This document shows, one piece after another, positions 14,057 through 48,734 of a stretch of DNA of 64,000 nt (its first letter is position 1; every line of letters starts with the position of its first letter). A model generated the notes under the pieces. The model saw only the letters and a program-made list of their open reading frames with translations. It ran no database searches and had not been told where the DNA came from. The stretch covers positions 1-64,000 of the forward strand of contig VFJJ01000069.1 in NCBI GenBank assembly GCA_009886115.1, in the 5' to 3' direction. A program made the position numbers and the translations under genes. The DNA comes from Actinomycetota bacterium (GTDB taxonomy: Bacteria; Actinomycetota; Acidimicrobiia; IMCC26256; VFJJ01).

Positions 14057-14562
14057 CGGGCTTGCCCCCCGACCTGGCGAAGCCGCACGGTCGTCCACAC
14101 CGCTTCCATGATGCGGCCGTATCCCGTGCAGCGACAGAGGTTCCCGGAGATGGCCTCGCGCACCTCGAGGTCGGTTGGAAGGGGCACGCGGTCGAGCAGG
14201 TCGTGCACCGCCATGATCAGGCCCGGGGTGCAGAAGCCGCACTGGACCGCGCCCTCGGTGAGGAACGCCTCCTGCACGTCGGACAAGACCGCATCGGAGC
14301 CGTCGATCGCGCCGGCTATCCCCTCCACGGTCACGATGTCGCGTCCGACCGCCGACGCCGCCAGCACCAGGCACGCGCACACCAGGCTGCCGTCGACGAG
14401 TACCGAGCAGGAACCGCACTCGCCCTGCTCGCAGGCGTTCTTGGCGCCGGGGAGATCGAGCCGCTCCCGGAGCACCCAGAGCAGGCTCTCGCCGAGCCAC
14501 CCGTCGCTCACCTCACGATCGCGCCCGTTCACCCGTAACGTGTAGGCGCAGTACTCACTCAC
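14053..14562 (-). CDS. (2Fe-2S)-binding small subunit of the XDH-family hydroxylase
   Basis: CEQGECGSCSVLVDG and CGFCTPGLIMA...CRCTGYGRI; GTG 14562 preceded by GGAGG; ATGA overlap with the large subunit. Confidence 0.93.
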   Translation of the reverse strand: MSEYCAYTLRVNGRDREVSDGWLGESLLWVLRERLDLPGAKNACEQGECGSCSVLVDGSLVCACLVLAASAVGRDIVTVEGIAGAIDGSDAVLSDVQEAFLTEGAVQCGFCTPGLIMAVHDLLDRVPLPTDLEVREAISGNLCRCTGYGRIMEAVWTTVRLRQVGGQAR

Positions 14563-14621: not shown

Positions 14622-15503
14622 TCACGTTCCGACCACCTGGGGGGAGAGCGCTCGCAGCAGCGCTCGGCGGGCACACACGCTGACGGCGTGGCGACGGTAG
14701 ACGGCGGACGAGCGGTGGTCGTCAATGGGACGCGACGCTCCGGCGACCATGCGACCGAACTCCTCGGCGAGCGTCTCGGGATCACCGTCGCTCGAGATCC
14801 CGAGGGGATCGAACGCCAACCGCTCGGCGATCCAGCGCTCGGCCTCGCGAGCTCGCAGCGGGGCGGGTCCCACCGAGCCCAGGCCCACGGCCACCGTCGC
14901 GGCGTCGAGGTCGACCACCAACGCCACCGAAGCAACCGCGATCACCATGGCGTTGCGGGTACCCACCTTGAGGAACTCCTGCGGTCCCCGGCGCACAGGC
15001 AGTCGAGCGCCGAGGATGATCTCGTGGGGCTCACGGGCCGTGCGCTTCACCCCCACGATGAACTCGTCCCAGGGCAGCTCCCGCTGAGCCCCGCCGGCAG
15101 CGCCGAGCACCACCGTCGCGTCGAGCGCCGCCAACACCGGCAGGGTGTCGCCCGCGGGCGAGGCCGTTCCCAGATTGCCTCCGAGGGTGCCGGCGTTGCG
15201 GATCTGCGGACCGCCGACCGTGCGGGCGGCCTGGGCCAGGGCCGGGAAAGACTCCGCCAGCTCACCGATTTCCATCTCGGTGTAGGTGAGCCCCGACCGT
15301 ACCAGGACGCTCCGACCGTCGGCTGAGCGCTCCCAGCCCCGGAGCTCGGGCACCCGATCGAGCGACACCACCGCAGTAGGGCGGCGATGGCCGTAGTTCA
15401 CCTCGACCATGAGATCGGTGCCCCCCATGAGCAGATGGGCATCGGGCTCGGCAGCCAAGGCGGCAAACGCCTCGTCGAGGGATCGGGGAACGGCGACGGT
15501 CAC
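14622..15503 (-). CDS. FAD-binding medium subunit of the XDH-family hydroxylase
   Basis: LMGGTDLMVEVNYG, QIRNAGTLGGNLGTASPAGDTLPVL; GTG start at 15503. Confidence 0.9.
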   Translation of the reverse strand: MTVAVPRSLDEAFAALAAEPDAHLLMGGTDLMVEVNYGHRRPTAVVSLDRVPELRGWERSADGRSVLVRSGLTYTEMEIGELAESFPALAQAARTVGGPQIRNAGTLGGNLGTASPAGDTLPVLAALDATVVLGAAGGAQRELPWDEFIVGVKRTAREPHEIILGARLPVRRGPQEFLKVGTRNAMVIAVASVALVVDLDAATVAVGLGSVGPAPLRAREAERWIAERLAFDPLGISSDGDPETLAEEFGRMVAGASRPIDDHRSSAVYRRHAVSVCARRALLRALSPQVVGT

Positions 15504-15518: not shown

Positions 15519-15535
15519 TTCAACAGATTGTTGAA
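15519..15535. promoter_or_regulatory. operator-like palindrome TTCAACA-GAT-TGTTGAA (site 1)
   Basis: Perfect 7-bp inverted arms with a 3-bp centre, 16 bp upstream of the FAD-subunit start; related motifs at 25480 and 31492. Confidence 0.7.
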
Positions 15536-15580
15536 CGAGGTGGGATGGTCGGGCGCCGATGATTGTCCGAACGTCGCTTG

Positions 15581-16423
15581 TCAGGCCCGGAGGGTGCTCA
15601 CCGGCTCCCAGTGCATGACCCAGGCCGGGGCCGGTCCCGGGCCGGGGTCGGCGCCGTCGACCGCCCCCGCCGAGCTGCCGAAGATCGTCTGGTAGGGCGG
15701 CAGCGGCGACATCCCCGGCGTCGCCAGGCCGTGCCACGATTCGGCCACCGCAACGGCGTCGCGAACGCTCGGGAACACGGCGAGATGGTGGCCCGCTCCG
15801 CGACCAGCCGGGTCGCTCGTGGCCAACCACCGAGGCCCGCCGCCCAGACGGGTGAGAGCCTGCGAGCCTGCGCCCTGGGCGAAGGCCCCGTACCAGCTGG
15901 CCGCATCGGCGGCCGTCCCGGGATGGCGCCAGTCGTTCTGCACCGTCGTGAGGACGGCCACCGGCTCGCACGGCTGCTCCGGCGTTGGGTGCTCCGCCGT
16001 CGGATGCCCGAGCGTCGGCTGTCCGGGCGCAGGTTGCTCCGACCCGCCGGCATCGAGTCTGGCGGCGAAGAGCATGATGGCGAAGCGGACCGAGGCGATG
16101 TCGCCGACCCGTCCGGCTTCGCGCAGCGCCTGGGCGCGAGGCCCGATGTAACCCCACGCCTCGGCCTCCGAGGCGAAGCGCCCCTCCCACAGGGCCAGGA
16201 ACGGCGCGGCACGATGCCCGGGGCCCACGGCGCGGAAGCGATGGACGGCCGTGAACGATCCGTTGGCGATGGCGTCGGGACCGTGCACCGTGTCGTACCA
16301 CTCGTGGAACTCGTCCTCGCGGCCCTCCGGCGGATCGCCCAGAGCCACGAACAACGTCGAAGGGCACTGCGGATCGAAGCGCACGGGCGTCCCTGCGGGT
16401 CGGGTCGGGTCGAGCCGGGTCAC
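15581..16423 (-). CDS. EthD/dimeric alpha-beta barrel-like protein of unknown function
   Basis: Starts at GTG 16423 overlapping the stop of the next gene (GTGA); FVALGDPPEGREDEFHEWYDTVHGPDAIANGSFTAVHRFRAVGPG... Confidence 0.65.
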   Translation of the reverse strand: MTRLDPTRPAGTPVRFDPQCPSTLFVALGDPPEGREDEFHEWYDTVHGPDAIANGSFTAVHRFRAVGPGHRAAPFLALWEGRFASEAEAWGYIGPRAQALREAGRVGDIASVRFAIMLFAARLDAGGSEQPAPGQPTLGHPTAEHPTPEQPCEPVAVLTTVQNDWRHPGTAADAASWYGAFAQGAGSQALTRLGGGPRWLATSDPAGRGAGHHLAVFPSVRDAVAVAESWHGLATPGMSPLPPYQTIFGSSAGAVDGADPGPGPAPAWVMHWEPVSTLRA

Positions 16424-16869
16424 TCCCGGTCGAGCGGGTTGTCGCGGAGGTGCTGGGTGAGGTTGCCCACGAGATCGCCGAAGATCAAGCGGTGCTTGAA
16501 CCGCCACCGGCCGTCGACCTTCTCGAAGGTGTCGTGATAGCGGCCGGCGATGACGATCTGGAGCGGCAGCTCGGGCGTGGCCTGGTACACGGTGAAGTAC
16601 GACCGGGTGCGGGCCTCGTCGGCTCCGTCGTCGTGCTCGAGGATCGTGTTGGTGGTGACGTGCTTGGTGCGCAGCGTTCCGTCGTCGTACACCTTGTCGT
16701 GCTTGGTCTTGAGCGCGTAGACCTCGTCGAAGCCGACGTGCGAGTCGCCGTTGTGCACGGCGTAGGTGGAGTGGCGGAACAGCTCGGCGACCCCGACGAA
16801 ATCGGCCGCGTCCTGGAGCTCGCAGTAGCGGTGGAGCAGGTTGAGGATCGCTCGTTCGTCAGAAGCCAC
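16420..16869 (-). CDS. nuclear transport factor 2/SnoaL-like domain protein
   Basis: ERAILNLLHRYCELQDAADFVGVAELF...YHDTFEKVDGRWRFKHRLI is characteristic of SnoaL_4-type proteins; GTG 16869. Confidence 0.85.
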   Translation of the reverse strand: MASDERAILNLLHRYCELQDAADFVGVAELFRHSTYAVHNGDSHVGFDEVYALKTKHDKVYDDGTLRTKHVTTNTILEHDDGADEARTRSYFTVYQATPELPLQIVIAGRYHDTFEKVDGRWRFKHRLIFGDLVGNLTQHLRDNPLDRE

Positions 16870-17067
16870 GGATCCATCCTGGTGAGAGTTCGAGCGACGC
16901 CGGGGGCTCGCAGGTCGCTCGCGACGGTTCGAGGCTAGCGTTGGCGCCGATGCCGGCACAGGAGAGCAGCCGATGAGCGAGCCGCAGGCGAGCGAATCAG
17001 AAGGCACAGCGCTGTCGACGCCACGCAGTGGCGGTGGGGTCACGGGCGCATCCCGAAGGGTGCGACC

Positions 17068-17919
17068 ATGAGCGAGAAGGTCGCCTTCGTGACGGGAGCC
17101 AGCCGAGGCATCGGCAAGGCGATCGCCGTCGAGTTGGCGCACGCGGGCTACGACGTGGCCATCACGGCCCGCACCGTGCACGAGGGTGAGAGCCGCGAGC
17201 ACAGCTCCACACTCAAGCGCTCCGACACCACACCGCTGCCCGGCTCGCTCGACTCGACGGCTCAGCAGATCGAGGCCACGGGACGGCGGTGCCTCACGGT
17301 CCCGGCCGACCTGCTCGACCACCCGTCGCTCGTGAGCGCGGCCGACCGGGTGCTGGCCGAGCTGGGCCGGGTCGACGTGCTCGTGAACAACGGGCGCTAC
17401 ATAGGCCCCGGGCACATGGACCTCATCCTCGACACGCCCATCCGCATCTTGCGCGACCACCTCGAGGCCAACGCCCTGGCGCCGGTGGTGCTGGTGAAGG
17501 CCTTGGTGCCGCAGATGGTCGAACGAGGCAACGGCACAGTCATCAACATCACCTCGGGTGTGGCCTATGGCGATCCGCCGGCCCCGGCAGGCCAGGGCGG
17601 ATGGGGTCTGGGGTACGCGTTCAGCAAGGGTGCGCTGCACCGCATCGCCGGCGTGCTCGCGGTCGAGCTGCGCGACCGGGGGATCAAGGCGTTCAACGTG
17701 CAACCCGGTTTCATCGCCACCGAGCGCATCGCCCAGGACATGGCGGCGTTCGGTTTCGACGCCTCGACCGGAGCCCCGCCGGCGGTCATCGCCAAGGTCT
17801 GCCGGTGGCTGCTCGAATCGCCCGACGCCGCGCTGCGCAACGGCCAGAACATCGAGGCCCAGGACGTGTGCAGCGCCCTGGGCTTGTTGCCGGGCTGGTC
17901 GCTCGCACCAGCAGGCTGA
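17068..17919 (+). CDS. SDR family oxidoreductase
   Basis: VAFVTGASRGIGKAIAVELA, VLVNNGRYIGPG, GYAFSKGALHRIAGVLAVELRD. Confidence 0.9.
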   Translation: MSEKVAFVTGASRGIGKAIAVELAHAGYDVAITARTVHEGESREHSSTLKRSDTTPLPGSLDSTAQQIEATGRRCLTVPADLLDHPSLVSAADRVLAELGRVDVLVNNGRYIGPGHMDLILDTPIRILRDHLEANALAPVVLVKALVPQMVERGNGTVINITSGVAYGDPPAPAGQGGWGLGYAFSKGALHRIAGVLAVELRDRGIKAFNVQPGFIATERIAQDMAAFGFDASTGAPPAVIAKVCRWLLESPDAALRNGQNIEAQDVCSALGLLPGWSLAPAG

Positions 17920-18030
17920 GCCACTGAACGCACGAGCATTGGCCGCAGCACCAACGACGGCGGCAGCATCCACGCAAACGGCATCCACGCAAGCGGCATC
18001 GACGGCGCCGATCGATCGGCAGGAGGGTTC

Positions 18031-19299
18031 GTGGCCGGGATCAAGCTCGATGAGATGGAGAACCGGCCCGGCTTCATGCGCTCGAAGAAGCCCGAGACCG
18101 TCACGCTGTTGCCCGACCCGCCCCGGGCCCGTCGCCATGTGCCGATCATCTCGACCGACGACCACCTCGTGGAGCCGCCCGACATGTTCGAGGGACGGCT
18201 TCCGTCGCGCTTCGCTGCGCTGTCTCCCCGAGTCGTCGACAACCCGGGCCCGGCCGGCGGCCAAGCCTGGCTGTACGACGGCCGCCTCAATCCCCAGATC
18301 GGCCTGGCCGCCGTGGCCGGACGGCCCATCGAGGAATGCTCCTATGAGCCGGTGCGCTTCGACGAGATGCGCAGGGGCTCGTGGGACGTGCACGCACGAA
18401 TCGCCGACATGGACCTCGACGGCGTGTACGCGTCGGTGAACTTCCCCTCGGCCATGGCCGGGTTCTGCGGGCACCGGCTGCAGCTCGGCGTCAGCGATAC
18501 CGAGCTGGCCCTGGCCGTCACCCGGGCCGCCAACGACTGGCATCTCGAGTCGTGGGCCGGGGCGTATCCCGAGCGGCTCATCCCGTGCCAGATCCCGTGG
18601 CTGCTCGATCCCGAGGTGGCCGCCGCCGAGGTGCGCCGCAACGCCGCCCGGGGGTTCAAGGCCGTGTCGTTCAGCGAGAACCCCGAGCCGCTCGGGCTCC
18701 CGTCGATCCACACCGGCCACTGGGACCCGTTCCTTCGAGCCTGTGAGGAGACCGAGACCGTGGTGTGCCTGCACGTCGGCTCGTCGGGCTCCACCCCGAC
18801 CACGTCGAGCGACGCGCCGGGCGACTGCATCGGTGTGCTGTTCTTCGGGTTCGCCATGTTCGCCACGGTCGACTGGCTCTACTCGAAGATCCCGGTGCGC
18901 TTCCCGAACATCAAGATCTGCCTGGCCGAAGGCGGGATCGGCTGGGTTGCCGGGCTGCTCGACCGTCTCGACCACATCGGCAAGTACCAGGCGATCTACG
19001 GCACGTGGGAGGGCATCGACCTCACCCCCCGCGAGGTCGTGGCGCGCAACTTCACCTTCTGCTCGTTGGAGGACGGCTCGGCGTTCGACGTGCTCGACCA
19101 CATCGGCGTCGACACTGTGACCGTCGAGACCGACTATCCCCACCTCGACGGCACCTGGCCCGATTCTCAGGAGATCCTGTGGCGCCAGATCGGCCATCTG
19201 CCACCGGCCACCATCGCCAAGGTCGCATGGCAGAACGCTTCGGAGCTGTTCCGTCACCCCGTGCCCGCCTCGGTGATCACCGATCCCGAGTCGTGGTGA
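18031..19299 (+). CDS. amidohydrolase family protein (paralog A)
   Basis: RHVPIISTDDHLVEPPDMFEGR...YPERLIPCQIPWLLDPE...VETDYPHLDGTWPDSQ; GTG start. Confidence 0.9.
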   Translation: MAGIKLDEMENRPGFMRSKKPETVTLLPDPPRARRHVPIISTDDHLVEPPDMFEGRLPSRFAALSPRVVDNPGPAGGQAWLYDGRLNPQIGLAAVAGRPIEECSYEPVRFDEMRRGSWDVHARIADMDLDGVYASVNFPSAMAGFCGHRLQLGVSDTELALAVTRAANDWHLESWAGAYPERLIPCQIPWLLDPEVAAAEVRRNAARGFKAVSFSENPEPLGLPSIHTGHWDPFLRACEETETVVCLHVGSSGSTPTTSSDAPGDCIGVLFFGFAMFATVDWLYSKIPVRFPNIKICLAEGGIGWVAGLLDRLDHIGKYQAIYGTWEGIDLTPREVVARNFTFCSLEDGSAFDVLDHIGVDTVTVETDYPHLDGTWPDSQEILWRQIGHLPPATIAKVAWQNASELFRHPVPASVITDPESW

Positions 19300-19312
19300 G
19301 GGCAGTCGCCGA

Positions 19313-21055
19313 ATGACTCGCTCGACCGCCGATCTGGTGATCACGGGTGGCATCGTCGTCGACGGCACGGGCGCGCCGGCACGGCGGGCCGACGTGGCCG
19401 TGGCCGCAGGGCACGTCGTCGCGGTCGGCGACGACCTCACGGGCGCCACCGTGGTCGACGCCCGTGGCCGGTATGTCACCCCCGGTTTCTTCGACATCCA
19501 CACCCACTACGACGCCCAGGTGTTCTGGGACCCGGGCCTCTCGTCGTCGTGCTGGCACGGGGTCACATCGGTCGTGGCCGGGAACTGTGGCTTCTCGATC
19601 GCCCCGACCCGGCCCGAGCACCGGTCGGTGATCGTGCGCACGCTCCAGGCCGTGGAAGACATGTCGGAGCGGATGCTCGACGCCGGCATCGAGTGGAGCT
19701 TCGAGACCTTCGGCGAGTATCTCGATCTCGTCGAACGGCGAGGCACGATCCTCAACTTCGGCTGTTACATCGGCCACAGTCCGGTGCGGTTGTTCGTGAT
19801 GGGCGACGCCGGCTACGAGCGCGAGGCAACGCCGGAGGAGATCGTCGCCATGCGCGACGTGGTGGCCGACGGAATGCGCGCCGGCGCGCTCGGGTTCGCG
19901 TCGAGCTACTCGGCCAACCACCGCGGCGATCGCGGGTTACCCGTCCCACCGCGTCACGGGACGCGCGACGAGTTCGTGGCGCTGGCATCGGTGCTCGGCG
20001 AGCTCGGCTACGGAGCCGTCTGTTATGCACCCGGGCAACCGGTGACGTGGCGCGACAGCTACGAGATACAGCCCGAGATCGGCCGGCCACTCATGTGGAC
20101 GCCCATGCTCACGACCTATCCCGAGACCGACCACCGAGCGATGATGGCGTTCCACGCCGCCGGCCGGGCAGCCGGAGCCGACGTACGGCCTCAGGTCACA
20201 TGCCTCCCGCTGAAGATCCAGTTCAAGATGGACAACCCTTATTACTTTCGGACGGTCCCCATCTTCTTGGAATTACTCGGCTACCAGCCATCGGAGTTCT
20301 CCCGGTTCTACGCCGACCCGTCCTGGCGGGCCGAGGCGGCGCGGCAGGCCCCCGATGTGAAGCCGCCCGTGATCTGGGACCGTTTTCTCGTGGCCGAGAC
20401 CGGCACTTCCCCCGAGCTGGTCGGACGCGACGTTGCGTCGATCGCCCGCGAGCGACGCTGCACCGAGATCGACGTGTTGTGCGACCTGGCCCTGGCCGAC
20501 GACCTCGAGACCCGGTTCCTCGTCACGCTGAGCAACTACCAGGACGGCCCGGTGGCCGAGCTCATGCGCCAGCCCGGCGCCGTGTTCGGCCAGTCTGACG
20601 CCGGGGCGCACGTGGCGCAGCTGTGCGACGCCAACATGCCCACGGAGCTGCTCGCCCACTGGGTGCGCGAGCGCGGCGTGTTCAGCGCGGAAGAGGCCAT
20701 CCACAAGCTCACCGCCGAGCTGGCCGACCTGTACGGCCTGGCCGACCGCGGCCGCCTGGTTCCCGGGGCTGCGGCCGATATCGTGATCGTCGACATGGAA
20801 ACCGTCGACCCGGGCCCGTTGCGCAGGGTGCGCGACCTTCCCGGCGACGAGGAGCGGCTCATCGCCGACCAGCCCACCGGGATCGACCACGTCTTCGTGA
20901 ACGGCGTGGCCATCACCAGGCACGGGGAGTCGCTGGTGTCGACCATGCCCGAACGACCAGGCCGTGTGCTTCGGGCCCACGGCGGCGTCTCGACGGATGG
21001 CCCCTCTGGCGGCGGGCCGCGCGGCGGCCCGTCGAACAGTGGGGGGCGGTCGTGA
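19313..21055 (+). CDS. N-acyl-D-amino-acid deacylase/D-aminoacylase-like amidohydrolase
   Basis: ITGGIVVDGTGAPARRADVAV...VTPGFFDIHTHYDAQVFWDP...HGVTSVVAGNCGFSIAP...GQSDAGAHVAQLCDA. Confidence 0.88.
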   Translation: MTRSTADLVITGGIVVDGTGAPARRADVAVAAGHVVAVGDDLTGATVVDARGRYVTPGFFDIHTHYDAQVFWDPGLSSSCWHGVTSVVAGNCGFSIAPTRPEHRSVIVRTLQAVEDMSERMLDAGIEWSFETFGEYLDLVERRGTILNFGCYIGHSPVRLFVMGDAGYEREATPEEIVAMRDVVADGMRAGALGFASSYSANHRGDRGLPVPPRHGTRDEFVALASVLGELGYGAVCYAPGQPVTWRDSYEIQPEIGRPLMWTPMLTTYPETDHRAMMAFHAAGRAAGADVRPQVTCLPLKIQFKMDNPYYFRTVPIFLELLGYQPSEFSRFYADPSWRAEAARQAPDVKPPVIWDRFLVAETGTSPELVGRDVASIARERRCTEIDVLCDLALADDLETRFLVTLSNYQDGPVAELMRQPGAVFGQSDAGAHVAQLCDANMPTELLAHWVRERGVFSAEEAIHKLTAELADLYGLADRGRLVPGAAADIVIVDMETVDPGPLRRVRDLPGDEERLIADQPTGIDHVFVNGVAITRHGESLVSTMPERPGRVLRAHGGVSTDGPSGGGPRGGPSNSGGRS

Positions 21056-22173
21056 AGGCGGTGGTGTGCTACGGGCCGGGCGATGTGCGGGTCGACGACA
21101 TCGACGATCCGACACCGCTCGCCGGCGAGGTGAAGATCAGGGTCGCGGCGGTGGGCGTGTGCCACACCGACTTGAACTTCACCACCGGTCAGGTGCCTGT
21201 TCCCTTCCCGATCGTGTTGGGCCACGAGGCGGCCGGTGTCATCGTCGAGCTGGGGCCGGAGGTGCGAGCGCTGCACGTTGGCGACCACGTGGTGTGCTCG
21301 ATCATCGGGCCGTGCGAGCACTGCTTCCAATGTCTGCGCGACGACCCGGCGCTGTGCGAGAACGCCCCGCTGTTCACCGGGCGCATGCTCGACGGCACCA
21401 CCCGCCTGTCGAAGAACGGATCGCCCATCCACACCCTCCACTTTCAGGGTTCCTACGCCGAGTACGCCGTCGTCCCCGAGCGGTTCGTCACCGCGATCAG
21501 GGCCGACGCTCCACTCGACGTGATGTGCGGGCTGGCGTGCGGTGTGAGCACCGGGTTGGGCGCCGCGATCGTGCGGGCGCAAGTGAAGCCGGGCTCGAGC
21601 GTGGTGGTAATCGGATCGGGAGGCGTCGGGCTGTCCACGATGATGGGTGCACGTTTTTGTGGTGCGACCACCGTGATCGCCGTCGACCGGTTGGCCCACA
21701 AGGTCGACAAGGCTCTCGAGCTCGGGTTCGCCACGCACGGCATCGACGCGTCGATGACCGACCCGGTCGCGGCAGTGCTCGAGCTCACGGCGGGGCGCGG
21801 CGCCGACTACGGATTCGACGCCGTCGGGGTCGACGGCACCTTCGACCAGGTGATCGCCGCCACCCGGCCCGGGGCAACCTGTGTGGTGATCGGACGGGCG
21901 CTCGGGCTCGTCGAGGTCACCGTGAACACCGCGATGCTGCTGCGCCAACGGATTCTCACCGGCACCTACGGCGGCTCGATCCACCCGCGGCGACACATCC
22001 CCGAGTTCGTCGAGCTGTGCATGCAGGGACGACTGAACCTGGCCGGCATCCTCGACACCCGCTACTCCATCGATCAGGCGCCCCAGGCGCTCGACGATCT
22101 CCACCACGGGCGCGTCACCCGCGGGGTGATCGTGTTCCCCTCGCCAGGCGACGAGTTGGGTGGCCATCCATGA
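21052..22173 (+). CDS. zinc-dependent alcohol dehydrogenase
   Basis: VGVCHTDLNFTTGQ...PIVLGHEAAGVIVELGPEV...VVVIGSGGVGLSTM; GTG overlap with the preceding stop. Confidence 0.92.
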   Translation: MKAVVCYGPGDVRVDDIDDPTPLAGEVKIRVAAVGVCHTDLNFTTGQVPVPFPIVLGHEAAGVIVELGPEVRALHVGDHVVCSIIGPCEHCFQCLRDDPALCENAPLFTGRMLDGTTRLSKNGSPIHTLHFQGSYAEYAVVPERFVTAIRADAPLDVMCGLACGVSTGLGAAIVRAQVKPGSSVVVIGSGGVGLSTMMGARFCGATTVIAVDRLAHKVDKALELGFATHGIDASMTDPVAAVLELTAGRGADYGFDAVGVDGTFDQVIAATRPGATCVVIGRALGLVEVTVNTAMLLRQRILTGTYGGSIHPRRHIPEFVELCMQGRLNLAGILDTRYSIDQAPQALDDLHHGRVTRGVIVFPSPGDELGGHP

Positions 22174-23438
22174 CCGGGTCGATCAGCTTCGACGAGATCG
22201 AGTCACGCCAAGGGTTCCTGGCCACCGGAGCCAAGCCCGAGACCATCGACTGGCTCCCCGAGCCGCCCCGGGCGTTCCGGCACGTGCCCATCATCTCGGT
22301 CGACGACCATCTCGTCGAGCCGCCCCACATCTTCGAAGGTCGGGTATCTGCCCGATATGCCGACCTGGCCCCGCGGGTGATGGCCGAGGACGACGGCCGT
22401 TCGGAGTACTGGCTCTACGACGGCAAGAAGCACTACAAGGTGGGCCTGAACGCCGTTGTGGGCAAGCCGCTGCACCAACGCACGTTCGACCCCGCCCGCT
22501 TCGACGAGATGCGCCGAGGTGCCTGGGACATCCACGCCCGCATCGCCGACATGGACCTGAACGGCGTGTATTCGTCGGTCTGCTTCCCCTCGTCGCTTGC
22601 CGGTTTCGCCGGGCAGCGTTACCAGCTCGGCGTGAGCGACCGCGAGCTGGCCCGGGCCGTGGTGCGCGCGGCCAACGACTGGCATCTCGAGGAGTGGGCC
22701 GGCACCTACCCCGGTCGCATGATTCCCTTGCAGCTCCCGTGGTTGCTCGATCCCGTCGAGGCTGGCGACGAGATTCGCCGCAACGCAGCGCGGGGCTTCA
22801 CCGCCGTCACCTTCCCCGAGCTGCCCGAGCGGCTGGGCCTGCCGTCGCTGCACACCGGGTACTGGGATCCGTTCGTCGCAGCCTGCGAAGAGACCGAGAC
22901 CGTCATCTGCCTGCACGTCGGATCGTCATCGTCGGCGCCGGCCACGTCCACGGGCGCACCGTCCGACACGATCGGCGTGCTGTTCTTCGGTTGGGCCATG
23001 TTCGCAGCCGTCGACTGGCTCTACTCGTTGATACCGGTGCGCTTTCCCAACGTGAAGATCTGCATGTCGGAAGGCGGCATCGGCTGGGTCGCCGGCCTCC
23101 TCGACCGGCTCGACCATGTGGGCCGCTACCAACGGATCTTCGGCACCTGGGAGGGCATCTCGCTCACGCCACGTGAGGTGATGCAACGGAACTTCTGGTT
23201 CTGCACGATCGACGATCTCGCCGGCCTCGAGCAGCGCCACCACATCGGCGTCGACCACGTGATGGTCGAGTCCGACTACCCCCACCAAGACGGCACCTGG
23301 CCCGACACCCAGGCCATCGTGTGGTCCCAGATCTGCACCTTCCCAGCCGACGAGATCGAGCGCATCGCCTGGCGCAACGCGGCCGCGCTCTTCCGTCATC
23401 CCGTCCCCGATTCGGCGATAACCGACTTCGGTTCATAG
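22170..23438 (+). CDS. amidohydrolase family protein (paralog B)
   Basis: Near-colinear paralog of 18031..19299 (FRHVPIISVDDHLVEPPHIFEGR...IADMDLNGVYSSVCFPSSLAGF...VESDYPHQDGTWPDTQ). Confidence 0.92.
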   Translation: MTGSISFDEIESRQGFLATGAKPETIDWLPEPPRAFRHVPIISVDDHLVEPPHIFEGRVSARYADLAPRVMAEDDGRSEYWLYDGKKHYKVGLNAVVGKPLHQRTFDPARFDEMRRGAWDIHARIADMDLNGVYSSVCFPSSLAGFAGQRYQLGVSDRELARAVVRAANDWHLEEWAGTYPGRMIPLQLPWLLDPVEAGDEIRRNAARGFTAVTFPELPERLGLPSLHTGYWDPFVAACEETETVICLHVGSSSSAPATSTGAPSDTIGVLFFGWAMFAAVDWLYSLIPVRFPNVKICMSEGGIGWVAGLLDRLDHVGRYQRIFGTWEGISLTPREVMQRNFWFCTIDDLAGLEQRHHIGVDHVMVESDYPHQDGTWPDTQAIVWSQICTFPADEIERIAWRNAAALFRHPVPDSAITDFGS

Positions 23439-23593
23439 TCGGTGCTGGTCGTATCACTCCACGGTCGTCAAGGCCCGGGCGTTACGTCCGGTCAGTGCGA
23501 GGGATGCGCTCGCGCAGCGTCTCGGCCAAGGCAGCGTCCGCACACGGCGCGGTAGGTTCGTCGCACGGAGATCAGAAGCGGAGGGGAAAGCAC

Positions 23594-24451
23594 GTGGGGA
23601 ACGAGGCATACGGCGACATCAGGGTGCTCACGCCAGAGGAGCATTGGAAGCACTTCGAGTTGTCGTGGCGAGCGCTGAAATCGTACACATACCTGGGGAA
23701 GACGACCCCGTTCCTCGACATCGGCGTCGAGAGCGAGGCGATGCCGTTGCGCCACGACATGCGCAACTCCACCGGAGGGCTCACGGCCGGTCCGCTGTGC
23801 ATCCTGGCTCCCGAGCCCTACTGGCGCGACGACGAGTGCGTCCCGGCGCCCGTCACGATGACCTACGACATCCTCGACCCGGCGTACGACGTCACCCGTC
23901 TCGAAGCCGTCCGCGACGTCATCTCGGTGGGACGCACCATGGGTTACAGCCGCACCCGCATCGTCGATGCCGACAACCCCGAGCGGGTCATCGCCATCTC
24001 CACCGGGAGCGGGGCCAGCCTCGGTGACGTGCCTCCGGGCTTCTACCCCGTCGACAACCCCGTCAACGATGTGGCCGACTCCCCCGCCCTCCCCCCGTTG
24101 CGCGACGTCTTCGGGGTCGTGCAACGACCCGACGGCGCCCTCGAGATCGAGAAGGTGACGCCGATGATCGCGTCGCCGCACTCGGCGCTGCACCAGGGCC
24201 CGATCAACTTCGCCCTCGAAGCCGCGGCCATGGACGAGCTCGAGCGTGTGCTCGGAACGACCGACCTGCAGATCGACCACTACACCGTGATGTTCGTCAA
24301 GCCCGGTTACCACGGCCCATTCGTTTCCACCGCGACCCTCGTGAACCCGCGCGGGCCTCGGTACGGCGTCGAGATGACCATGCGCGACGAAGGCCACAGC
24401 AACCGCATCATCGCCACCGCCTCGGCCTCCTTCCACCGCGTCGCTCCGTGA
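23594..24451 (+). CDS. hotdog-fold/thioesterase-like acyl-CoA protein
   Basis: GTG 23594 with upstream GGAGGGGA; RNSTGGLTAGPLCILAPEPYW...INFALEAAAMDELERVLGTTDLQIDHYTVMFVKPGYHGPF. Confidence 0.65.
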   Translation: MGNEAYGDIRVLTPEEHWKHFELSWRALKSYTYLGKTTPFLDIGVESEAMPLRHDMRNSTGGLTAGPLCILAPEPYWRDDECVPAPVTMTYDILDPAYDVTRLEAVRDVISVGRTMGYSRTRIVDADNPERVIAISTGSGASLGDVPPGFYPVDNPVNDVADSPALPPLRDVFGVVQRPDGALEIEKVTPMIASPHSALHQGPINFALEAAAMDELERVLGTTDLQIDHYTVMFVKPGYHGPFVSTATLVNPRGPRYGVEMTMRDEGHSNRIIATASASFHRVAP

Positions 24452-24483
24452 CCTGACCTGACCTGACCTGACCTGACCTGACC
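24449..24483. repeat. 5-bp tandem repeat (TGACC)x7 beginning at the stop codon of the hotdog gene
   Basis: TGA stop at 24449-24451 is the first trimer of the first TGACC unit. Confidence 0.97.
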
Positions 24484-24580
24484 TGAGCTGACCGTCCACG
24501 GCGGGGCCTCCGGTTTCTTCGCGCTTTTTCACCGGGGCTGCGCAAAATCGCGGAGAAACGCCCGCCGCCGCCACTGCAGC

Positions 24581-25462
24581 TCAGGAAGACAGCACTTGGG
24601 CGCCGGTGGGGGCGATGTGGGTGACAAGCACCTCGGCCTCGGCTCCGACGCACCCGAGGGCCGTGAGGGCCCGGGTGACGCGGGTGACGGCCTCGGGTGC
24701 GGGGTCGACGAGTGTCGCGATGGCGGGGCCCGAACCGGAGAGCCAGGCGCACCATGCTCCGGCAGCCAGGGCGGCGTCGAGCGCGGAGCGAGACCGGGGG
24801 CGCAGAGCCAGGCGCACGTCCTGGTGGAAGCGGTCCTCGGTGGCCGCCCTCAGCGCTTCCACGTCGCCGGCCGCCAGCGCGGCGCACAACAGTGACGAGC
24901 GGCCGACGTTGAACACGGCATCGCCGAACGGCACCTGAGCTGGCAGAGCAGTCCTCGACTCGTCGGTTGAGGTCTCCTCGGGTGGAACCCACAGCACCAC
25001 GGCGGCCGAAGAGATCACCGGGGCCAACGGGATCTGCACCGCATGGCCTCCGGCTGCGGCGACGACACCACCGTAGAGCGATGCAGCCACGTTGTCGGGG
25101 TGGCCTTCGAGCTCGGTTCCGATGGCCAGGACCTCGCGGTGCGATTCGGCGAGCGACCCTCCGCGTTGGAGGATCGCCGCGATGATCCCCCCGACGCGAG
25201 CGGCGCCCGAGAAGCCGAGACCGCGTCCGGGCGGGATGGCGCCGGTCCAGCCGAGCGGGCCCACCCCACCGGCCCGGCGGAAGCCCTTCAGCGCCGGATT
25301 GCGGTGCGGATCGTCGCCGTCGAGGCTCGGATCGCCGAGCACGACGTCGAGGTGCAGATCGAGGGCCAGGCCCAGCACGTCGAAGCCTGGTCCGAGATTG
25401 GCCGAGGTGGCCGGGACCCTGATCCGGATCGGTACGTCCGACGACGACGGTGATCGGGGCAT
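24581..25462 (-). CDS. thrB: homoserine kinase-like GHMP kinase
   Basis: IRVPATSANLGPGFDVLGLALDLHLDV, PPGRGLGFSGAARVGG, AWLSGSGPAIATLVD; ATG 25462. Confidence 0.85.
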   Translation of the reverse strand: MPRSPSSSDVPIRIRVPATSANLGPGFDVLGLALDLHLDVVLGDPSLDGDDPHRNPALKGFRRAGGVGPLGWTGAIPPGRGLGFSGAARVGGIIAAILQRGGSLAESHREVLAIGTELEGHPDNVAASLYGGVVAAAGGHAVQIPLAPVISSAAVVLWVPPEETSTDESRTALPAQVPFGDAVFNVGRSSLLCAALAAGDVEALRAATEDRFHQDVRLALRPRSRSALDAALAAGAWCAWLSGSGPAIATLVDPAPEAVTRVTRALTALGCVGAEAEVLVTHIAPTGAQVLSS

Positions 25463-25479
25463 GGTCTGGCAGGATAGAC

Positions 25480-25496
25480 GTTGACAAATTGTTGAA
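25480..25496. promoter_or_regulatory. operator-like motif GTTGACAAATTGTTGAA (site 2)
   Basis: Differs from site 3 (31492) at 2 of 17 positions; lies in the divergent gap between thrB and the PLP genes. Confidence 0.65.
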
Positions 25497-25559
25497 GAAT
25501 GCTCGCACCGTCCGCCATCCCGGTGGGTACGGGCCACCGGAACGACCAGAGAGGCCATC

Positions 25560-27113
25560 GTGAGCGCCATACCCGACCCTCAGAAGCTCGGTCTCGAACG
25601 TGACGTCGTCGATCAGGCGATCCTCGAACGGTCGGTCGAGCGGTTTCGCGCCGAGCGGATCGTGCTCCCCACGTTCGCCGAGCTGGCCGACCCGTCGACC
25701 ATCCACCCGGCTGTCCGCAACGCCACCGGTTCGGTCGACGCCAACGGCCCGCATGCGCTCAACCTGTTCCGGGTGCACTGGCACAACGTGGCCGCCGACG
25801 CCGCGGCGCAGGCGCCGACCCCCGAGCACGTCGTGCTGCCCAAGAGCCTCACCGGCGTCGACACCCCGATCGTGGTGGCCTTCGGGAACCGGTTCCCGAT
25901 GATCGGCGCCCACAAGGTGCTGGCGGCCTACTCCTGCCTCGCGCCCCGAGTCGTGAGCGGGCAGTACGACCCCACGGTGCACCGCGCCGTGTGGCCGTCG
26001 ACGGGGAACTATGCCCGGGGCGGCGTGGCCATCAGCCGGATCATGGGGTGCCGCGGCGTCGCCGTGCTGCCCGAGAACATGAGTCGCGAGCGCTTCGAGT
26101 GGCTCGATCGCTGGATCGCCGACCCCGCCGACATCATCCGTACCCCGGGATCGGAGAGCAACGTCAAGGAGATCTACGACGAGTGCGCCCGGCTCGCCGC
26201 CGACCCGGCCAACTTCATCCTCAACCAGTTCTCGGAGTTCTCGAACCATCTCGGCCACTACACGGTCACCGGACCGGCGCTCGAACACGTCTTCGAGACG
26301 GTGGCCGCGGCGCATGCCAGCACTGGCGACGCCACGACCCTGCGCCTCGCAGCCTTCGTGTCGGCATCGGGGTCGGCGGGCACGCTCGCCGCCGGCGACT
26401 ATCTCAAGGACCGTCACGGCACCCGCATCGCCGCCGTCGAGGCGCTGGAATGCCCGACCATGCTCTACAACGGTTTCGGGGAGCACAACATCCAGGGGAT
26501 CGGCGACAAGCACATCCCGCTCATCCACAACGTGATGAACACCGACTGGGCCGTCGGCGTGTCCGACCGGGCGTGCGACGAGCTGGGCCTGGTGTTCAAC
26601 ACCGCGGCCGGGACGGCCTTCCTCCGCGACCGGGTCGGCGTCGACGCGGCCGTGATCGACGCGCTCCCCGGCTTCGGACTGTCGTCGATCTGCAACGTGC
26701 TCGCGGCCATCAAGATCGCCAAGCAGGCCGGCCTCGGCGCCGACGACGTGATCGTGACCGTGGCCACCGACGGCGCGGTGCTCTACGGTTCCGAGCGCGA
26801 GCGGCTGCTCACGGGCTCGGGCCGTTACGCGACAACGGGTTTCGGTGAAACCGAGGCTGCCGCGGCGTTCGCCCGTCATCTCGAAGGGGCCACGGTCGAT
26901 CACACGATCGAGTGCACGCAGCTCGACCGGTCTCGGATCTTCAACCTGGGGTACTTCACCTGGGTCGAGCAGCAGGGCGTCGAGCTCGAGCTGTTCGAGG
27001 CCCGACGTTCGCAGGCCTTCTGGCGGGAGCTGCGGGGCTACGTGCCCGTATGGGACGACATGATCCGCGAGTTCAACGCTCGCACCGGGGTCCTCCGGGA
27101 GCTCACGGCGTGA
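25560..27113 (+). CDS. PLP-dependent enzyme, fold-type II-like, atypical
   Basis: 517 aa; [73 protein letters not shown] start. Confidence 0.78.
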
Positions 27114-28546
27114 TCCTGCGTTGCCACGGCTGCGGTTGGACGGCCCCGGCCGATCGACCGCTCACGTTCCGGTGCGCCAACGCCGGCCGGGCCGACGACA
27201 CCGACCACGTGTTGACGATCGTCGACACCGGTGACGGGCGCCCGGCTGCGGCCCCGGCTGCGGCAACGGGAGCAGGCGGCGGCGCAATCGACGGCACCGC
27301 AGACGACGGAACCGTGGATGGCCGCTCCGGGAATCCGTTCGTCCGATACCGGGATCGCCTGTATTCCCATGATGTCGCGCTGCGTCACGGGCTCAGCGAC
27401 GACCGGTATCTCGAGCTCGTCATCGAGCTCGACGAGGCCGTGGCTCGCGTCGACGGACGGGGGTTTCGCGTCACGCCGTTCGGGCCGCAGCCTGCCTTGT
27501 CGGAACGACTCGGCGTTGCCGTTCTCGTGAAGGATGAGACCGGCGCGGTCTCGGGATCGCACAAGGCCCGCCATCTCATGGGAGTCATGATCCATCTCCT
27601 GGTGGCCGAGGCCATCGCGGGCGGCACGCAAGGCCGTGGCCCGGCTCGCGTCCGTGACCGGCTGGCGATCGCCTCGTGCGGCAACGCCGCCTTGGGTGCG
27701 GCAGTGGTGGCCCGGGCCGCCGACTGGCCCCTCGAGGTCTTCGTGCCACCCTGGGCCCCACCGACGGTCGTCGAGCGGCTCCACGAGCTCGGGGCTCACG
27801 TGACGCGGTGCCCCCGACGCGACGACGATCCGCCCGGCGATCCCTGCGTGCACCGCTTCCGTGAAGCGGTGGCCGCCGGGTCGGTGCCATTCAGCTGCCA
27901 GGGCCCCGACAACGGCCTCACGATCGACGGCGGTCGGACGCTGGGCTGGGAGCTGGCCGAGCAACGGGTGCATCAACCCTTCGGGCGCATCCTCGTGCAG
28001 GTCGGCGGCGGGGCTTTGGCGTCGAGCGTCGCTCAGGGGCTGCGGGTCGACGGCCCTCTCCCGATCGTGCATCCGGTGCAGACCGAGGGATGCGCTCCGC
28101 TCGCCCGCGCGTGGGACCGGGCCGGCCCGATCCTCGAACGAGTCGCTGGCGTGAGCCGGAGTGGCATCGACGGGGAGGGCCGCCCGGTCGAGCTCGACCG
28201 GGCGGCCGTTGTGGCGCTCTCCCACCGGCGCTCGGAGCTGATGTGGCCGTGGGAGACCGAGCCCCAGTCGGCCGCGCACGGGATCCTCGACGACGAGACC
28301 TACGACTGGTGGGAGATCGTGGCCGCGACGCACGAGAGTGGCGGTCGCCCCGTCGTGGCCCACGAAGCCGACATCATCGAGGCGCTCCGGCTGGCCCGCA
28401 CGCTCACGACCGTCCCGGTCGACGCCACCGGCAGCGCCGGGCTGGCCGGTCTGCTCAGGCTGCTCGCCGACGACCCGGGCGTCCGCAACGACGAGCTGCC
28501 CGTCGCCGTGGTCTTCACCGGCCTCGACCGCACCCTCAGCCGCTGA
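27110..28546 (+). CDS. threonine synthase-like PLP-dependent enzyme with N-terminal CxxC
   Basis: GTGA overlap; [21 protein letters not shown]-terminus, [23 protein letters not shown]-lysine motif, [17 protein letters not shown]. Confidence 0.82.
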
Positions 28547-28559
28547 AGCGACAACCCGG

Positions 28560-28573
28560 CTCCGTCGACGGAG
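28560..28573. repeat. 14-bp perfect palindrome CTCCGTCGACGGAG
   Basis: Direct inspection, 13 bp after the PLP gene stop. Confidence 0.8.
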
Positions 28574-28730
28574 ACGTCGTGGCGACAGGGCAGACGGGTC
28601 GCCCCAGCGCGCCCGGCCACGTGCCGCCCGGCCGCCTACCCGGCGTCCACCGTCGTCACGACAGACCAGCAGCTTGCCTGGCGTGACGCGCTCGGCGTGC
28701 GCCAGGGCCAAGGCGTCGTCGCGCCCGCCG

Positions 28731-30590
28731 TCACGGCGGCGGCGGGGGTGCTCGGGTCGTGGTGGGCCGTGGTTTCGTGGTCGTGGTGGGCGCCAGCTTG
28801 GTGGTGGTCGTCGGCGCGATCGTCGTGGTGGTGGGGGCGATCGTCGTGGTGGTGGGCGCCGTTGTGGTGGTGGTGGTGGTGGTTGCGGCAGGCACGGTCG
28901 GTACAGGCGTCGTCGGAGCCGTCGTTGCCGGGACGGGCGCGGTCGTCGCGGGAGCCGTGGGCGCGGGAACGTCGCCGCCACCCGGACCAGGACCGGTCGG
29001 GGCGGTCGTGTCGACCGTGCCCGGATCGTCGGGCGTGGGCACGGTGGGCTCGGCGATCGGCGCCGGCTCGACCGAGGTTGCCGGAGTCGAGCGCCTGCGG
29101 GTGGTCGTGGGGACGGGCGCCGTGGTCGTGGGCCCGGTGACCTCGACCGGGCTCCCGAGCGACCTGGTCGTGTTGGTGGACGTCGACACCGTCCGCGTCG
29201 TACTGGTGCGTAGCGAAGACGGTGCCGGCGAGCTCGGCGACGATGTCAACGGCCGCGATGACGTCAGCGTGGCACTCGGCTCGTTGCCCGTGGCGTCAGG
29301 GCCCCGGGCAGGCACGGTCGTGCCCGTGTCGGTTGCCGGCTCCTCGGAGACGACCGCCACCACGGCCGTGCGGCCGGGCACGTCGGGGTCGGGCTCGAAG
29401 ACCACCATGCTGGCAACCACCAGGAGAGCGATGACCGCCGCCAGCGCCGAGCCCACCAGGCTTCGTCGGTGACGCGCCCGTCGACCCGCGTGCGCGTACA
29501 CACTGGCCGACGATCGAACGAGCGGCTCATCGTCGGCCGCGAGCGCGCCGGCGTCCACCGGGACGTCGTGATCGACCTGCGGCCCCGCCTGGCCGTTCTC
29601 GCCCACAGGGCCAGCCGCCCCGCGCGCCCCACCCGCACCGGCAACCGCAGGCTCGCTGGGCAGTTGACCAGCAGCCGAGAAATGATCGGTCCCGACGACG
29701 GCGATTCCCGCTGCAGTGCGCTCGGCGATGCCAGCCGAGGAAGCGACAGCTGCGAGATAGCGCTTGGTGAATCGCCCGAGCGCCAAAGGCGCCACGGCGG
29801 CCACCAGGGCGGTATCGAGATCGAGCACCGACTCGGCCACCGCTCGACAGCGGTCGCACTCGTCGAGGTGAGCGTTGACACTGCTCTGCCGGCGCCCGAG
29901 GTCGCCCCGCACGAACGACGGGAGCAGGCGGACGACCGCCGCACACGCCGGATCCGCTGCAGGGTCCAGGTGCTCGTTCACGATGGCCTGGCGCAAGCCC
30001 TCCCGGGCCCGGCCTTCGAGGCGCTCTACCCGAACGGCGTCGATCGCCAGGATCTCAACCAGATCCCGGGCCTCGGCCCGCTCGATCGCCATGTGCCACA
30101 ACACGACCTGATAGCGGTGGGGTTGCGACGCGAAGGCCCGCACGAGCGGATCGACCTGACCCGGATCGGCGAGCTGGACAGCGAAGAGGAGCCGGCGCAC
30201 CGGGGCGGCTCGACCGGGGTCTGCGTCATCGCGCTGCTGGCGGCGAGAGCGGTCGATCACGACGTCGATCGCGGCGTTCAGGGCCTGAGGGCGGAAGGCG
30301 AACGCGTGGCCCCGACCGGCGCCGAGCTCCCGGTGCAGCAGCTCGAGCCCGGCGTCGACGACCGACGAGGCCACTTTCGGCGAGCGCGTGAGCACGCCGG
30401 CCATCGTCTCCAGCCCGAAGCGATGACGCTCGACGAGAACCGACCAGGCGTCGCCATCTCCGTCGCCGACACTGCCCATCAGGTCACGGTCGGAGCGCGT
30501 CACGTACCCGGCATCGTCCGGTACTCGGGGTTGACCACCAGGCGTCACGGCACCGGCTTCGTCTGCTCGATCGTTCGCTTCGCCACTCAC
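28731..30590 (-). CDS. sigma-factor-like / zinc-finger (zf-HC2) anti-sigma-like / TM / Thr-Pro-rich tail fusion
   Basis: Sigma2-like DRDLMGSVGDGDGDAWSVLVERHRFGLE; sigma4-like YQVVLWHMAIERAEARDLVEILAIDAVRVERLEGRAREGLRQ; NAHLDECDRC (Hx3Cx2C); TM SLVGSALAAVIALLVVASMVVF; PTTTTIAPTTTT tail. Confidence 0.8.
   Translation of the reverse strand: MSGEANDRADEAGAVTPGGQPRVPDDAGYVTRSDRDLMGSVGDGDGDAWSVLVERHRFGLETMAGVLTRSPKVASSVVDAGLELLHRELGAGRGHAFAFRPQALNAAIDVVIDRSRRQQRDDADPGRAAPVRRLLFAVQLADPGQVDPLVRAFASQPHRYQVVLWHMAIERAEARDLVEILAIDAVRVERLEGRAREGLRQAIVNEHLDPAADPACAAVVRLLPSFVRGDLGRRQSSVNAHLDECDRCRAVAESVLDLDTALVAAVAPLALGRFTKRYLAAVASSAGIAERTAAGIAVVGTDHFSAAGQLPSEPAVAGAGGARGAAGPVGENGQAGPQVDHDVPVDAGALAADDEPLVRSSASVYAHAGRRARHRRSLVGSALAAVIALLVVASMVVFEPDPDVPGRTAVVAVVSEEPATDTGTTVPARGPDATGNEPSATLTSSRPLTSSPSSPAPSSLRTSTTRTVSTSTNTTRSLGSPVEVTGPTTTAPVPTTTRRRSTPATSVEPAPIAEPTVPTPDDPGTVDTTAPTGPGPGGGDVPAPTAPATTAPVPATTAPTTPVPTVPAATTTTTTTTAPTTTTIAPTTTTIAPTTTTKLAPTTTTKPRPTTTRAPPPPP
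28775..28900 (-). repeat. low-complexity repeat encoding (A)PTTTT units
   Basis: Encodes ATTTTTTTTAPTTTTIAPTTTTIAPTTTTKLAPTTTTKPRPTTTR. Confidence 0.85.
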
Positions 30591-30847
30591 CGATGCACTC
30601 CACCCTGATGGTCTCGCCCCGCGACCATCGTTCCTGCTGCCCTGATCTCAGCCCCGTTCACTGCCCGTCGTTGCCCCGTCGGCACCCGCGATGTCCGGGA
30701 TGCCGGTCTCCGGCGAGCGTACAGGGTCGTTCGTAACGGTCGAAGGCGGCGAAAAGGGTGGAACCTCCCATGGGTGCTGTTGTAAGCCAGATCGGCGCCT
30801 CGTACGCAGGCACCTCCGAGGCTCACAGAACGCTGCGGGAGCGGCGG

Positions 30848-31366
30848 TCAGGCGTCGCGGTTGGCGGCCTGGGTGACGGGGGGCAGGCACGACCATGGGA
30901 ACTCGATCCATCGATCGGTGTGTCGCCAGACGTAATCGCAGTTCACGATGGACTGCGGCTTCTCGTAGAGCACTGCGGTGCGGAGCTCGGCGACCTCGCC
31001 GCTGCAGTAGTCGACGACGAGCTTGAGGGTGTGCCCGGTGTCGGCCACGTCGTCGACGACGAGCACCCTCGTGCCCCGGATGTCGACCATGTTGAGCACC
31101 GGGGGGAGCATCACCGGGAAGTCGAGCCGCTGGTTGACCCCCGTGTAGAACTCGACGTTCATCACGTGCACGTTCTTGACCGCCAAGGCGTAGGCGATGG
31201 CCCCGCCCAGCAGCATCCCGCCACGCGCGATCGTGAGCACGATGTCGGGGGCGTATCCGGAGTCGTGCACCTCGGTCGCGAGCTGGCGCACCGCGGTTCC
31301 GAACTCCGTGTAGCCGAGCACCTCACGCGGCGGCGGCCCTGCCCCCGTTTCGACGATTTCGCTCAC
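30848..31366 (-). CDS. phosphoribosyltransferase (hypoxanthine/xanthine PRTase-like)
   Basis: IVLTIARGGMLLGGAIAYAL and RVLVVDDVADTGHTLKLV (PRPP-binding loop). Confidence 0.9.
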   Translation of the reverse strand: MSEIVETGAGPPPREVLGYTEFGTAVRQLATEVHDSGYAPDIVLTIARGGMLLGGAIAYALAVKNVHVMNVEFYTGVNQRLDFPVMLPPVLNMVDIRGTRVLVVDDVADTGHTLKLVVDYCSGEVAELRTAVLYEKPQSIVNCDYVWRHTDRWIEFPWSCLPPVTQAANRDA

Positions 31367-31491
31367 CGATCGCCCTCCCCGCTCTCGCAGCCGGAAACCT
31401 CGCTGCCGGCTCCGGGTTCCACCCTATTCGCTCCGATGCGGAGCCATCGGTTGGACGGCGCTCGACATGCTCTAGCGAGCTCGTGCTCAGC

Positions 31492-31508
31492 ATTGACAAA
31501 ATGTTGAA
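31492..31508. promoter_or_regulatory. operator-like motif ATTGACAAAATGTTGAA (site 3)
   Basis: Near-identical to site 2; in the divergent PRTase/XdhD-like intergenic region. Confidence 0.65.
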
Positions 31509-34206: not shown

Positions 34207-34249
34207 CGACCGACAACCGACAACCGACGACTGACAGCCGACAGGTGAC
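34201..34249. repeat. degenerate 7-bp tandem repeat (RRCYGAC)x7 spanning the XdhD-like stop codon
   Basis: GACTGAC GACCGAC AACCGAC AACCGAC GACTGAC AGCCGAC AGGTGAC. Confidence 0.85.
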
Positions 34250-34304
34250 CGACCAGGCGGCCGGCCAGACCGGCGAGCGACACACGACCACGGAAGGCCA
34301 TCGG

Positions 34305-35384
34305 ATGGGCTCCACGACCCCGGGGATGGTGTGCGGCCACCATCATCTGTACTCGGCCCTGGCTCGGGGGATGCCCGCGCCGCCGATGACCCCGACGAAC
34401 TTTCGCGAGGTTCTCGAACAGGTCTGGTGGCGGCTCGACTGTGCCCTCGACCTCGAGATGATCCGGTGGTCGGCCACCCTCGGCGCCGTCGAGGCGTTGG
34501 CGGCGGGGTGTACGGCGATCGTCGACCACCACGAGTCGCCCCATGCCATCGAAGGCTCGCTGTCGGTGATCGCCGAAGCCTGCGCGGAGGTCGGCGTCCG
34601 GGTGTCGTGCGCGTACGGGGTGACCGACCGGCACGGGCCCGACGGGGCGCGACGGGGCCTCGCCGAGAACGAGCGGTACCTCCGCTCGGGCGGCCGGGGT
34701 CTCGTGGGGGTGCACGCCGCGTTCACCTGCTCCGACGACACGCTCAGGGCCGCAACCGGGCTGGCAGCCGATCTCGGTGTGGGCGTGCACATCCACGTGG
34801 CCGAGGGCATCGACGATCGCGACGCCGGGAAACGCTTGGCGCCCTTGGCTGCGAGCGACTGGCTGCTGGTGCATTGCGTGCATCTCGACGAGCCGCTGCC
34901 GGGGACGATCGCCCACAACCCCCGCTCCAACATGAACAACGCGGTCGGGTACGCGCGGCCCACCCGCTTCGCGGCGCCCCCGTTCGCGGCACCGGGCACG
35001 GGCACGGGCACGGGCACGGGCGGCGGCGGGAACCCGGTCGTGCTCGGTACCGACGGCATCGGCGCCGACATGCTCGACGAGTTCCGTCTGGCCTACGTGA
35101 AGCTGCGCGAGAGCGACATCACCGCGACCCCGCAGACGCCATGGAACTGGCTGGCCAACGGCTGGGACCTCATGCCGGAGGCCCACAGCGACGACACCGT
35201 CACCTGGTCGTACGAGCACGCCGACGATCCCTGGTGCCTGGCCTTCACGACCGGTGTGCACCCGATCGAGGTCACGGTCGCCGGCGAGGCAGTCTGGCGT
35301 GACGGCGCCCCGACCCGGGTCGACATCGTCGAGGTGCGCGCCAAGGCCGCCGAGCAGGCGGCGCGGCTGTTCGCCCGGCTCTGA
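34305..35384 (+). CDS. ssnA: SsnA-like amidohydrolase lacking the usual N-terminal region
   Basis: MVCGHHHLYSALARGMP, NFREVLEQVWWRLDCALD, CTAIVDHHESPHAIEGSLSVI, TDGIGADMLDEFRLAY match the SsnA pattern as I know it. Confidence 0.8.
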   Translation: MGSTTPGMVCGHHHLYSALARGMPAPPMTPTNFREVLEQVWWRLDCALDLEMIRWSATLGAVEALAAGCTAIVDHHESPHAIEGSLSVIAEACAEVGVRVSCAYGVTDRHGPDGARRGLAENERYLRSGGRGLVGVHAAFTCSDDTLRAATGLAADLGVGVHIHVAEGIDDRDAGKRLAPLAASDWLLVHCVHLDEPLPGTIAHNPRSNMNNAVGYARPTRFAAPPFAAPGTGTGTGTGGGGNPVVLGTDGIGADMLDEFRLAYVKLRESDITATPQTPWNWLANGWDLMPEAHSDDTVTWSYEHADDPWCLAFTTGVHPIEVTVAGEAVWRDGAPTRVDIVEVRAKAAEQAARLFARL

Positions 35385-48698: not shown

Positions 48699-48734
48699 TC
48701 TCGGAGAGAATCGCGAACTGGGTACCATCGATCC

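Follow-up and report, generated by a model that had tools for sequence, protein, structure and literature searches.

In the stretch of actinobacterial DNA analysed here (64,000 nucleotides, hereafter the window), three separate promoters carry a similar 17-mer, which raises the question of whether these promoters form one local regulon and, if so, which protein acts on them and in response to what. The reading that we consider very probable is that the three sites are the operators of a single purine/urate-catabolism regulon, to which a dimer of an HTH_22 protein encoded in the window would bind as a repressor until a metabolite releases it.

Three sites in front of purine genes

All three 17-mers were found at the coordinates given in the original prediction (Table 1). 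Each is intergenic and, as had been claimed, lies just 5' of a start codon, with site 1 at 15 nt from its gene, site 2 at 17 nt from the GHMP-kinase ATG and 63 nt from the PLP-enzyme GTG, and site 3 at 19 nt from the XdhD-like GTG at 31528. The reported agreement of sites 2 and 3 at 15/17 positions was confirmed, and all three sites fit the pattern nTnnACAAnnTGTTGAA. With up to three mismatches to TTGACAANNTGTTGAA, the window gave five matches, two of which are one palindromic site read from either strand; 0.48 were expected, and 100 shuffles never gave as many as five. Pattern searches of the whole genome (5.45 Mb in 224 contigs) returned exact TNNACANNNTGTTGAA, the pattern to which this uniqueness refers, only at sites 1 to 3, all inside 16 kb, and random scatter of the exact motif through the genome is thereby ruled out; TTGACAANNTGTTGAA with a single mismatch has one further match, C4:6215, inside a called 741-aa gene.

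The gene names proposed earlier for the XDH subunits, the ThrB-like kinase, the PALP enzymes, the PRTase and the XdhD-like and SsnA-like proteins were upheld. Site 3 is followed by a run of nine co-directional genes, from the XdhD-like gene to the FMN dehydrogenase.

Table 1. Operator-like sites and associated genes of the window.
Feature	Position	Strand	Sequence or supporting evidence
Site 1	15519..15535	-	TTCAACAATCTGTTGAA; palindrome TTCAACA-N3-TGTTGAA; 15 nt 5' of XDH FAD-subunit GTG
Site 2	25480..25496	+	GTTGACAAATTGTTGAA; divergent GHMP-kinase / PALP promoter
Site 3	31492..31508	+	ATTGACAAAATGTTGAA; before XdhD-like operon
XDH molybdenum subunit	11723..14047	-	PF02738, PF20256, PF01315
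XDH 2Fe-2S subunit	14053..14532	-	gene call; 65-72% identity to orthologues adjoining FAD subunit in relatives
XDH FAD-binding subunit, first gene of site-1 operon	14622..15503	-	PF00941, 7e-44
GHMP kinase, ThrB-like	24581..25462	-	165.7 bits, cut-off 168.25
PALP-family PLP enzyme 1 (PALP1)	25560..27113	+	PF00291; orthologues 62-63% identical in relatives' clusters
PALP-family PLP enzyme 2, threonine-synthase-like	27110..28546	+	PF00291
Phosphoribosyltransferase (PRTase), purine PRTase-like, divergent from site 3	30848..31366	-	PF00156; best NCBIfam match xanthine PRTase, below cut-off
XdhD-like fused Fe-S/Mo hydroxylase, first gene of site-3 operon	31528..34206	+	TIGR03311, 807.7 bits, cut-off 830.45
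SsnA-like amidohydrolase	34245..35384	+	SsnA models best matches, 233 and 215 bits, below cut-off
F420-type luciferase-like oxidoreductase	35456..36475	+	PF00296
HTH_22 protein, putative regulator of sites 1 to 3	36485..36886	+	PF13309, 1.9e-21; Phe106 in predicted recognition helix
Thiamine_BP small protein, conserved HTH_22 neighbour	36883..37143	+	PF01910
Glyoxalase-family protein, site-3 operon	37140..37505	+	PF00903
M20 hydantoinase/carbamoylase-type amidase	37524..38768	+	TIGR01879, 370 bits, cut-off 204
CN_hydrolase, N-carbamoyl amidase-like	38782..39717	+	PF00795
FMN-dependent dehydrogenase, last co-directional gene of site-3 run	39750..40907	+	PF01070

Some other features of the region are worth recording. 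The genome has no substantial ThrB-like match besides the GHMP kinase, which scores just under the homoserine-kinase cut-off and may be either the housekeeping enzyme or a catabolic one. An ORF of 590 aa on the minus strand (28731-30503) gives a borderline zf-HC2 match and has an N-terminus that reads as ECF-sigma-like, which suggests a sigma/anti-sigma arrangement. Further along, a MarR gene (48735) lies beside a YceI gene and a gene for an HTH_67 protein (49226), in a region (48053-50017) where no copy of the motif was found.

Conservation in related genomes

Clusters of the motif are present in several members of the order among the 149 nearest genomes, and they contain orthologues of the window genes; in the relative G017, five sites lie inside 27 kb of the orthologous gene cluster. 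When orthologous promoters were searched (up to 200 nt upstream, at most one mismatch), a site preceded the XDH FAD gene in 15 of the 16 genomes without a B-type regulator (see below), the XdhD-like gene in 7/14 genomes and the PALP1 gene in 2/2, including G017 (L041). The same search found no sites upstream of the operon-internal genes (Fe-S and Mo subunits, SsnA, LLM), and a control pattern had none at the orthologous promoters. In some relatives the motif also occurs before ABC transporter and molybdopterin oxidoreductase genes, and an 8-oxoguanine deaminase, scoring over its cut-off, is part of one relative's cluster. The sites are thus concentrated in front of start codons and kept at orthologous promoters, and the proposal of a local regulon under one operator is supported by these data together with the uniqueness of the motif in the genome and the site clusters of the relatives; neither of the two refuting outcomes named in the original prediction was observed. 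As a separate observation, G008 (L056, L057) has two TTGACAAAATGTTGAC matches and no HTH_22 gene over the cut-off.

The HTH_22 protein as likely regulator

For the regulator the original prediction had suggested the GntR or TetR family and had listed the HTH at 36485 only as an extra candidate. This order is now reversed: neither a GntR nor a TetR domain was found among the window genes scanned (part of the window genes), and the HTH_22 protein is favoured through its linkage to the motif, its association with uricase clusters and its co-variation with the operator. Judging from these comparisons of sequences, the protein encoded at 36485-36886 is the likely regulator of the three sites. It matches PF13309 with 76.3 bits against a gathering cut-off of 29.6, and about 50 residues precede the HTH, with no match to a PAS_6 domain; such proteins are about 110-130 aa long.

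An HTH_22 protein above the cut-off is encoded in 30/149 related genomes, including nearly all of those with site clusters. The orthologues adjoin the motif in Acidimicrobiia, and in many genomes the motif stands just 5' of the HTH_22 gene or inside the divergent promoter of that gene. Named genomes, when scanned, yielded 80 HTH_22 loci and extended this association to Saccharopolyspora, Actinopolyspora, Yinghuangia, Actinacidiphila and Tsukamurella, where HTH_22 adjoins uraD, pucM and uricase (names that are our reading of the translations) with TCAACA-N3-TGTTGAA close by; HTH_22, uraD-pucM-uricase and this dyad were found together in nine of ten Streptomyces-size genomes. In an unsupervised search around HTH_22 genes of the Phe type (Phe at position 106), CAACA-N3-TGTTG was the top dyad (20/48 loci). 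Uric acid breakdown in many actinobacteria appears to be under the control of HTH_22.

In 93 of 114 distinct loci the Thiamine_BP gene is no more than 700 bp from HTH_22, and because of this neighbourhood its product is a candidate partner or sensor of HTH_22, which is a guess on our part; in a purine-cluster clade (L124, L137, L141 and others), HTH_22 has no Thiamine_BP neighbour. A PDB sequence search and a fold search with the HTH_22 model returned no significant match.

Co-variation of operator and recognition helix

Two types of operator were scored within 1 kb of HTH_22 genes, A with the half-site TGTTGAA and B with the half-site TGTAAAG, the latter pattern having been defined after it was seen at two loci (L155 and L134); most other genomes then served as new tests. 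Among proteins with Phe106, 35/48 have TGTTGAA sites and none has TGTAAAG sites, whereas among those with Ile or Val at this position eight have only TGTAAAG-type sites and two only a weak TGTTGAA-type match. Only-A to only-B loci are therefore 35:0 against 2:8 (Fisher 2e-7), a count to be read as suggestive, since the regulator tree needs only two A/B label changes and the loci thus represent few evolutionary events and are not statistically independent. In the eight Ile/Val regions with SsnA- or XdhD-type purine genes, one of which is from the L155 genome, TGTAAAG-type sites occur in 8/8 with at most one mismatch and an exact TGTTGAA site in none; they mostly precede M20, XdhD-like, Thiamine_BP or XDH genes, that is, equivalent promoters. 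Positions 106 and 94 alone separate the Phe and Ile/Val classes perfectly, and position 106 opens the last long helix, the predicted recognition helix (model pLDDT 87). Operator and HTH_22 protein thus co-vary.

A large clade of Ile106 proteins in Acidimicrobiia (L064, L068, L071, L118, L126 and others) keeps the Thiamine_BP neighbour and lies mostly outside purine clusters. Beside genes other than those for purine catabolism, its members have neither the TGTTGAA nor the TGTAAAG operator, and a search for a palindromic operator of another kind found none.

Promoter architecture and mode of action

In 20 of 35 sites that contain TTGACA, a NANNNT hexamer follows 17 or 18 bp after it, compared with 0-4 at most other spacings; at site 3, TTGACA would be the -35 box and GACGAT, 17 bp on, the -10-like element. 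With this spacing, the motif spans the -35 box together with half the spacer. The start codon often follows 10-25 nt after the motif, and at some sites it is 50-75 nt away. A motif placed over the -35 box and spacer and close to the start codon makes repression likely, and on this layout we regard HTH_22 as a likely repressor.

The mechanism that we propose would start with an HTH_22 dimer binding the dyad TTSAACA-N3-TGTTGAA at the three sites. As the left half, TTGACA, is often the -35 box itself and the right half would lie in the spacer between -35 and -10, the bound protein is expected to block RNA polymerase. A metabolite of the purine pathway, such as urate, presumably releases HTH_22 from the operator. 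Since its gene is part of the site-3 operon, HTH_22 would also control itself.

An alternative reading makes the motif a strong -35 element and no more, with TTGACA followed by a conserved spacer and no regulator that recognises it; in its favour, the -35 consensus is TTGACA, and more than half of such sites have a -10-like element at 17-18 bp. We hold this to be highly improbable. The right half TGTTGAA is conserved like the left half (with the reservation that the sites were partly chosen by TGTTGAA), exact copies of the motif occur at a single metabolic locus only, and the dyad is kept at site 1 and at the sites of the uricase operons, where TCAACA takes the place of TTGACA; it is this persistence of the dyad, together with the change of the half-site with the type of HTH_22, on which we reject a pure promoter element. 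That the operator is real and another protein binds it, of the GntR, TetR, MarR or a similar family and encoded inside or outside the cluster, with HTH_22 as a passenger, is less far-fetched and still decidedly unlikely. GntR and TetR proteins commonly bind dyads of this size, the window does contain the MarR gene at 48735, and 13/48 Phe-type HTH_22 genes have no site within 1 kb, among them the window's own, whose sites are 5 to 21 kb away. However, among the genes scanned at 11-44 kb of the window HTH_22 is the only HTH domain found, it is the regulator gene common to the purine clusters of Acidimicrobiia and the uricase operons, and the operator changes along with its recognition helix.

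If HTH_22 does bind the sites, it might activate transcription there, perhaps jointly with the Thiamine_BP protein, a variant to which we give a small though somewhat larger chance. Its gene lies inside the operon to be controlled, the more distant sites (50-75 nt from the start codon) would allow it, and HeuR, a YheO-type PAS-HTH protein, is required for full expression of the chu genes (PMC5111405); an operator over the -35 box and spacer near the start codon is nevertheless the usual layout of a repressor. Beyond repression by HTH_22 at the three sites, it is conceivable, at less than even odds in our view, that HTH_22 and Thiamine_BP are the two parts of a split sensor-regulator, that it senses urate or one of the products of urate breakdown, and that across Actinomycetota it serves the oxidative pathway (uricase) as well as the reductive one (XdhD-SsnA). 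In this reading, position 106 of the recognition helix would set the half-site, TGTTGAA with Phe and TGTAAAG with Ile/Val.

A plausible variant of the reductive urate pathway

In E. coli and C. difficile, the cluster for reductive degradation of uric acid encodes an XdhD-type hydroxylase, SsnA, an M20 amidase and PALP enzymes (PMC12507026). XdhD-like, SsnA-like, M20 and PALP genes occur together in the window, along with the F420-type and CN_hydrolase genes, several of these matches being below equivalog cut-offs. The last two set the window apart from the E. coli and C. difficile cluster, as does its own proposed HTH_22 regulator with an operator, the word "regulator" being absent from the main text of PMC12507026. 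SsnA has been reported in Actinomycetota, and in Chloroflexota a luciferase-family F420 enzyme, which the F420-type gene of the window resembles, is reported in place of YgfK/UacX (PMC12507026). No uricase domain was matched in the genome (95.6% complete), no YgfK was seen in the cluster and no hydantoinase (HyuA) was identified in the window. It is plausible that the site-3 operon, with its F420 oxidoreductase and carbamoylase, is an actinobacterial form of the reductive urate pathway, with substrates that we infer for the window enzymes. The originally suggested programme of purine/N-heterocycle or amino-acid catabolism is narrowed, in that its purine/urate part stands and its amino-acid part does not.

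Comparison with known regulators

The window protein shares the DNA-binding family PF13309 with YheO, HeuR and DauR, which combine PAS_6 with HTH_22, and differs from them in its lack of a PAS_6 match, its small size and its purine/urate targets. Its neighbour is a Thiamine_BP protein, in contrast to the L-PSP/RidA-type partner of Cj1387c/YheO (PMC4519771). HeuR binds its target promoter in EMSA, with the exact binding site still open in that work (PMC5111405). In the open literature, most subscription journals being outside its scope, we found neither a published operator for HTH_22, DauR or YheO proteins nor a published regulator of Streptomyces uricase.

For the HTH_22 family, which has been little studied, the present analysis suggests what DNA its members recognise, and for uric acid breakdown in a large bacterial phylum, culturable Streptomyces-like genera included, it puts forward a regulator and an operator that can be tested. 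The natural difference between Phe and Ile/Val provides a ready mutational handle on this specificity. In addition, one operator stands before urate pathways that differ in their chemistry, which suggests a regulator that follows the substrate and not the enzymes.

Purine and urate catabolism genes are known to be repressed from local operators by the urate-responsive MarR regulators HucR, PecS and MftR and by the TetR regulator XdhR. The HTH_22 protein, as proposed here, would likewise be a repressor of purine/urate catabolism with local operators, although it belongs to an unrelated DNA-binding family and its operator sequence is different. What is known, then, is the HTH_22 domain and the ordinary form of a local regulon, and what would be new is the unexpected regulator, its wide distribution and an apparent switch of specificity.
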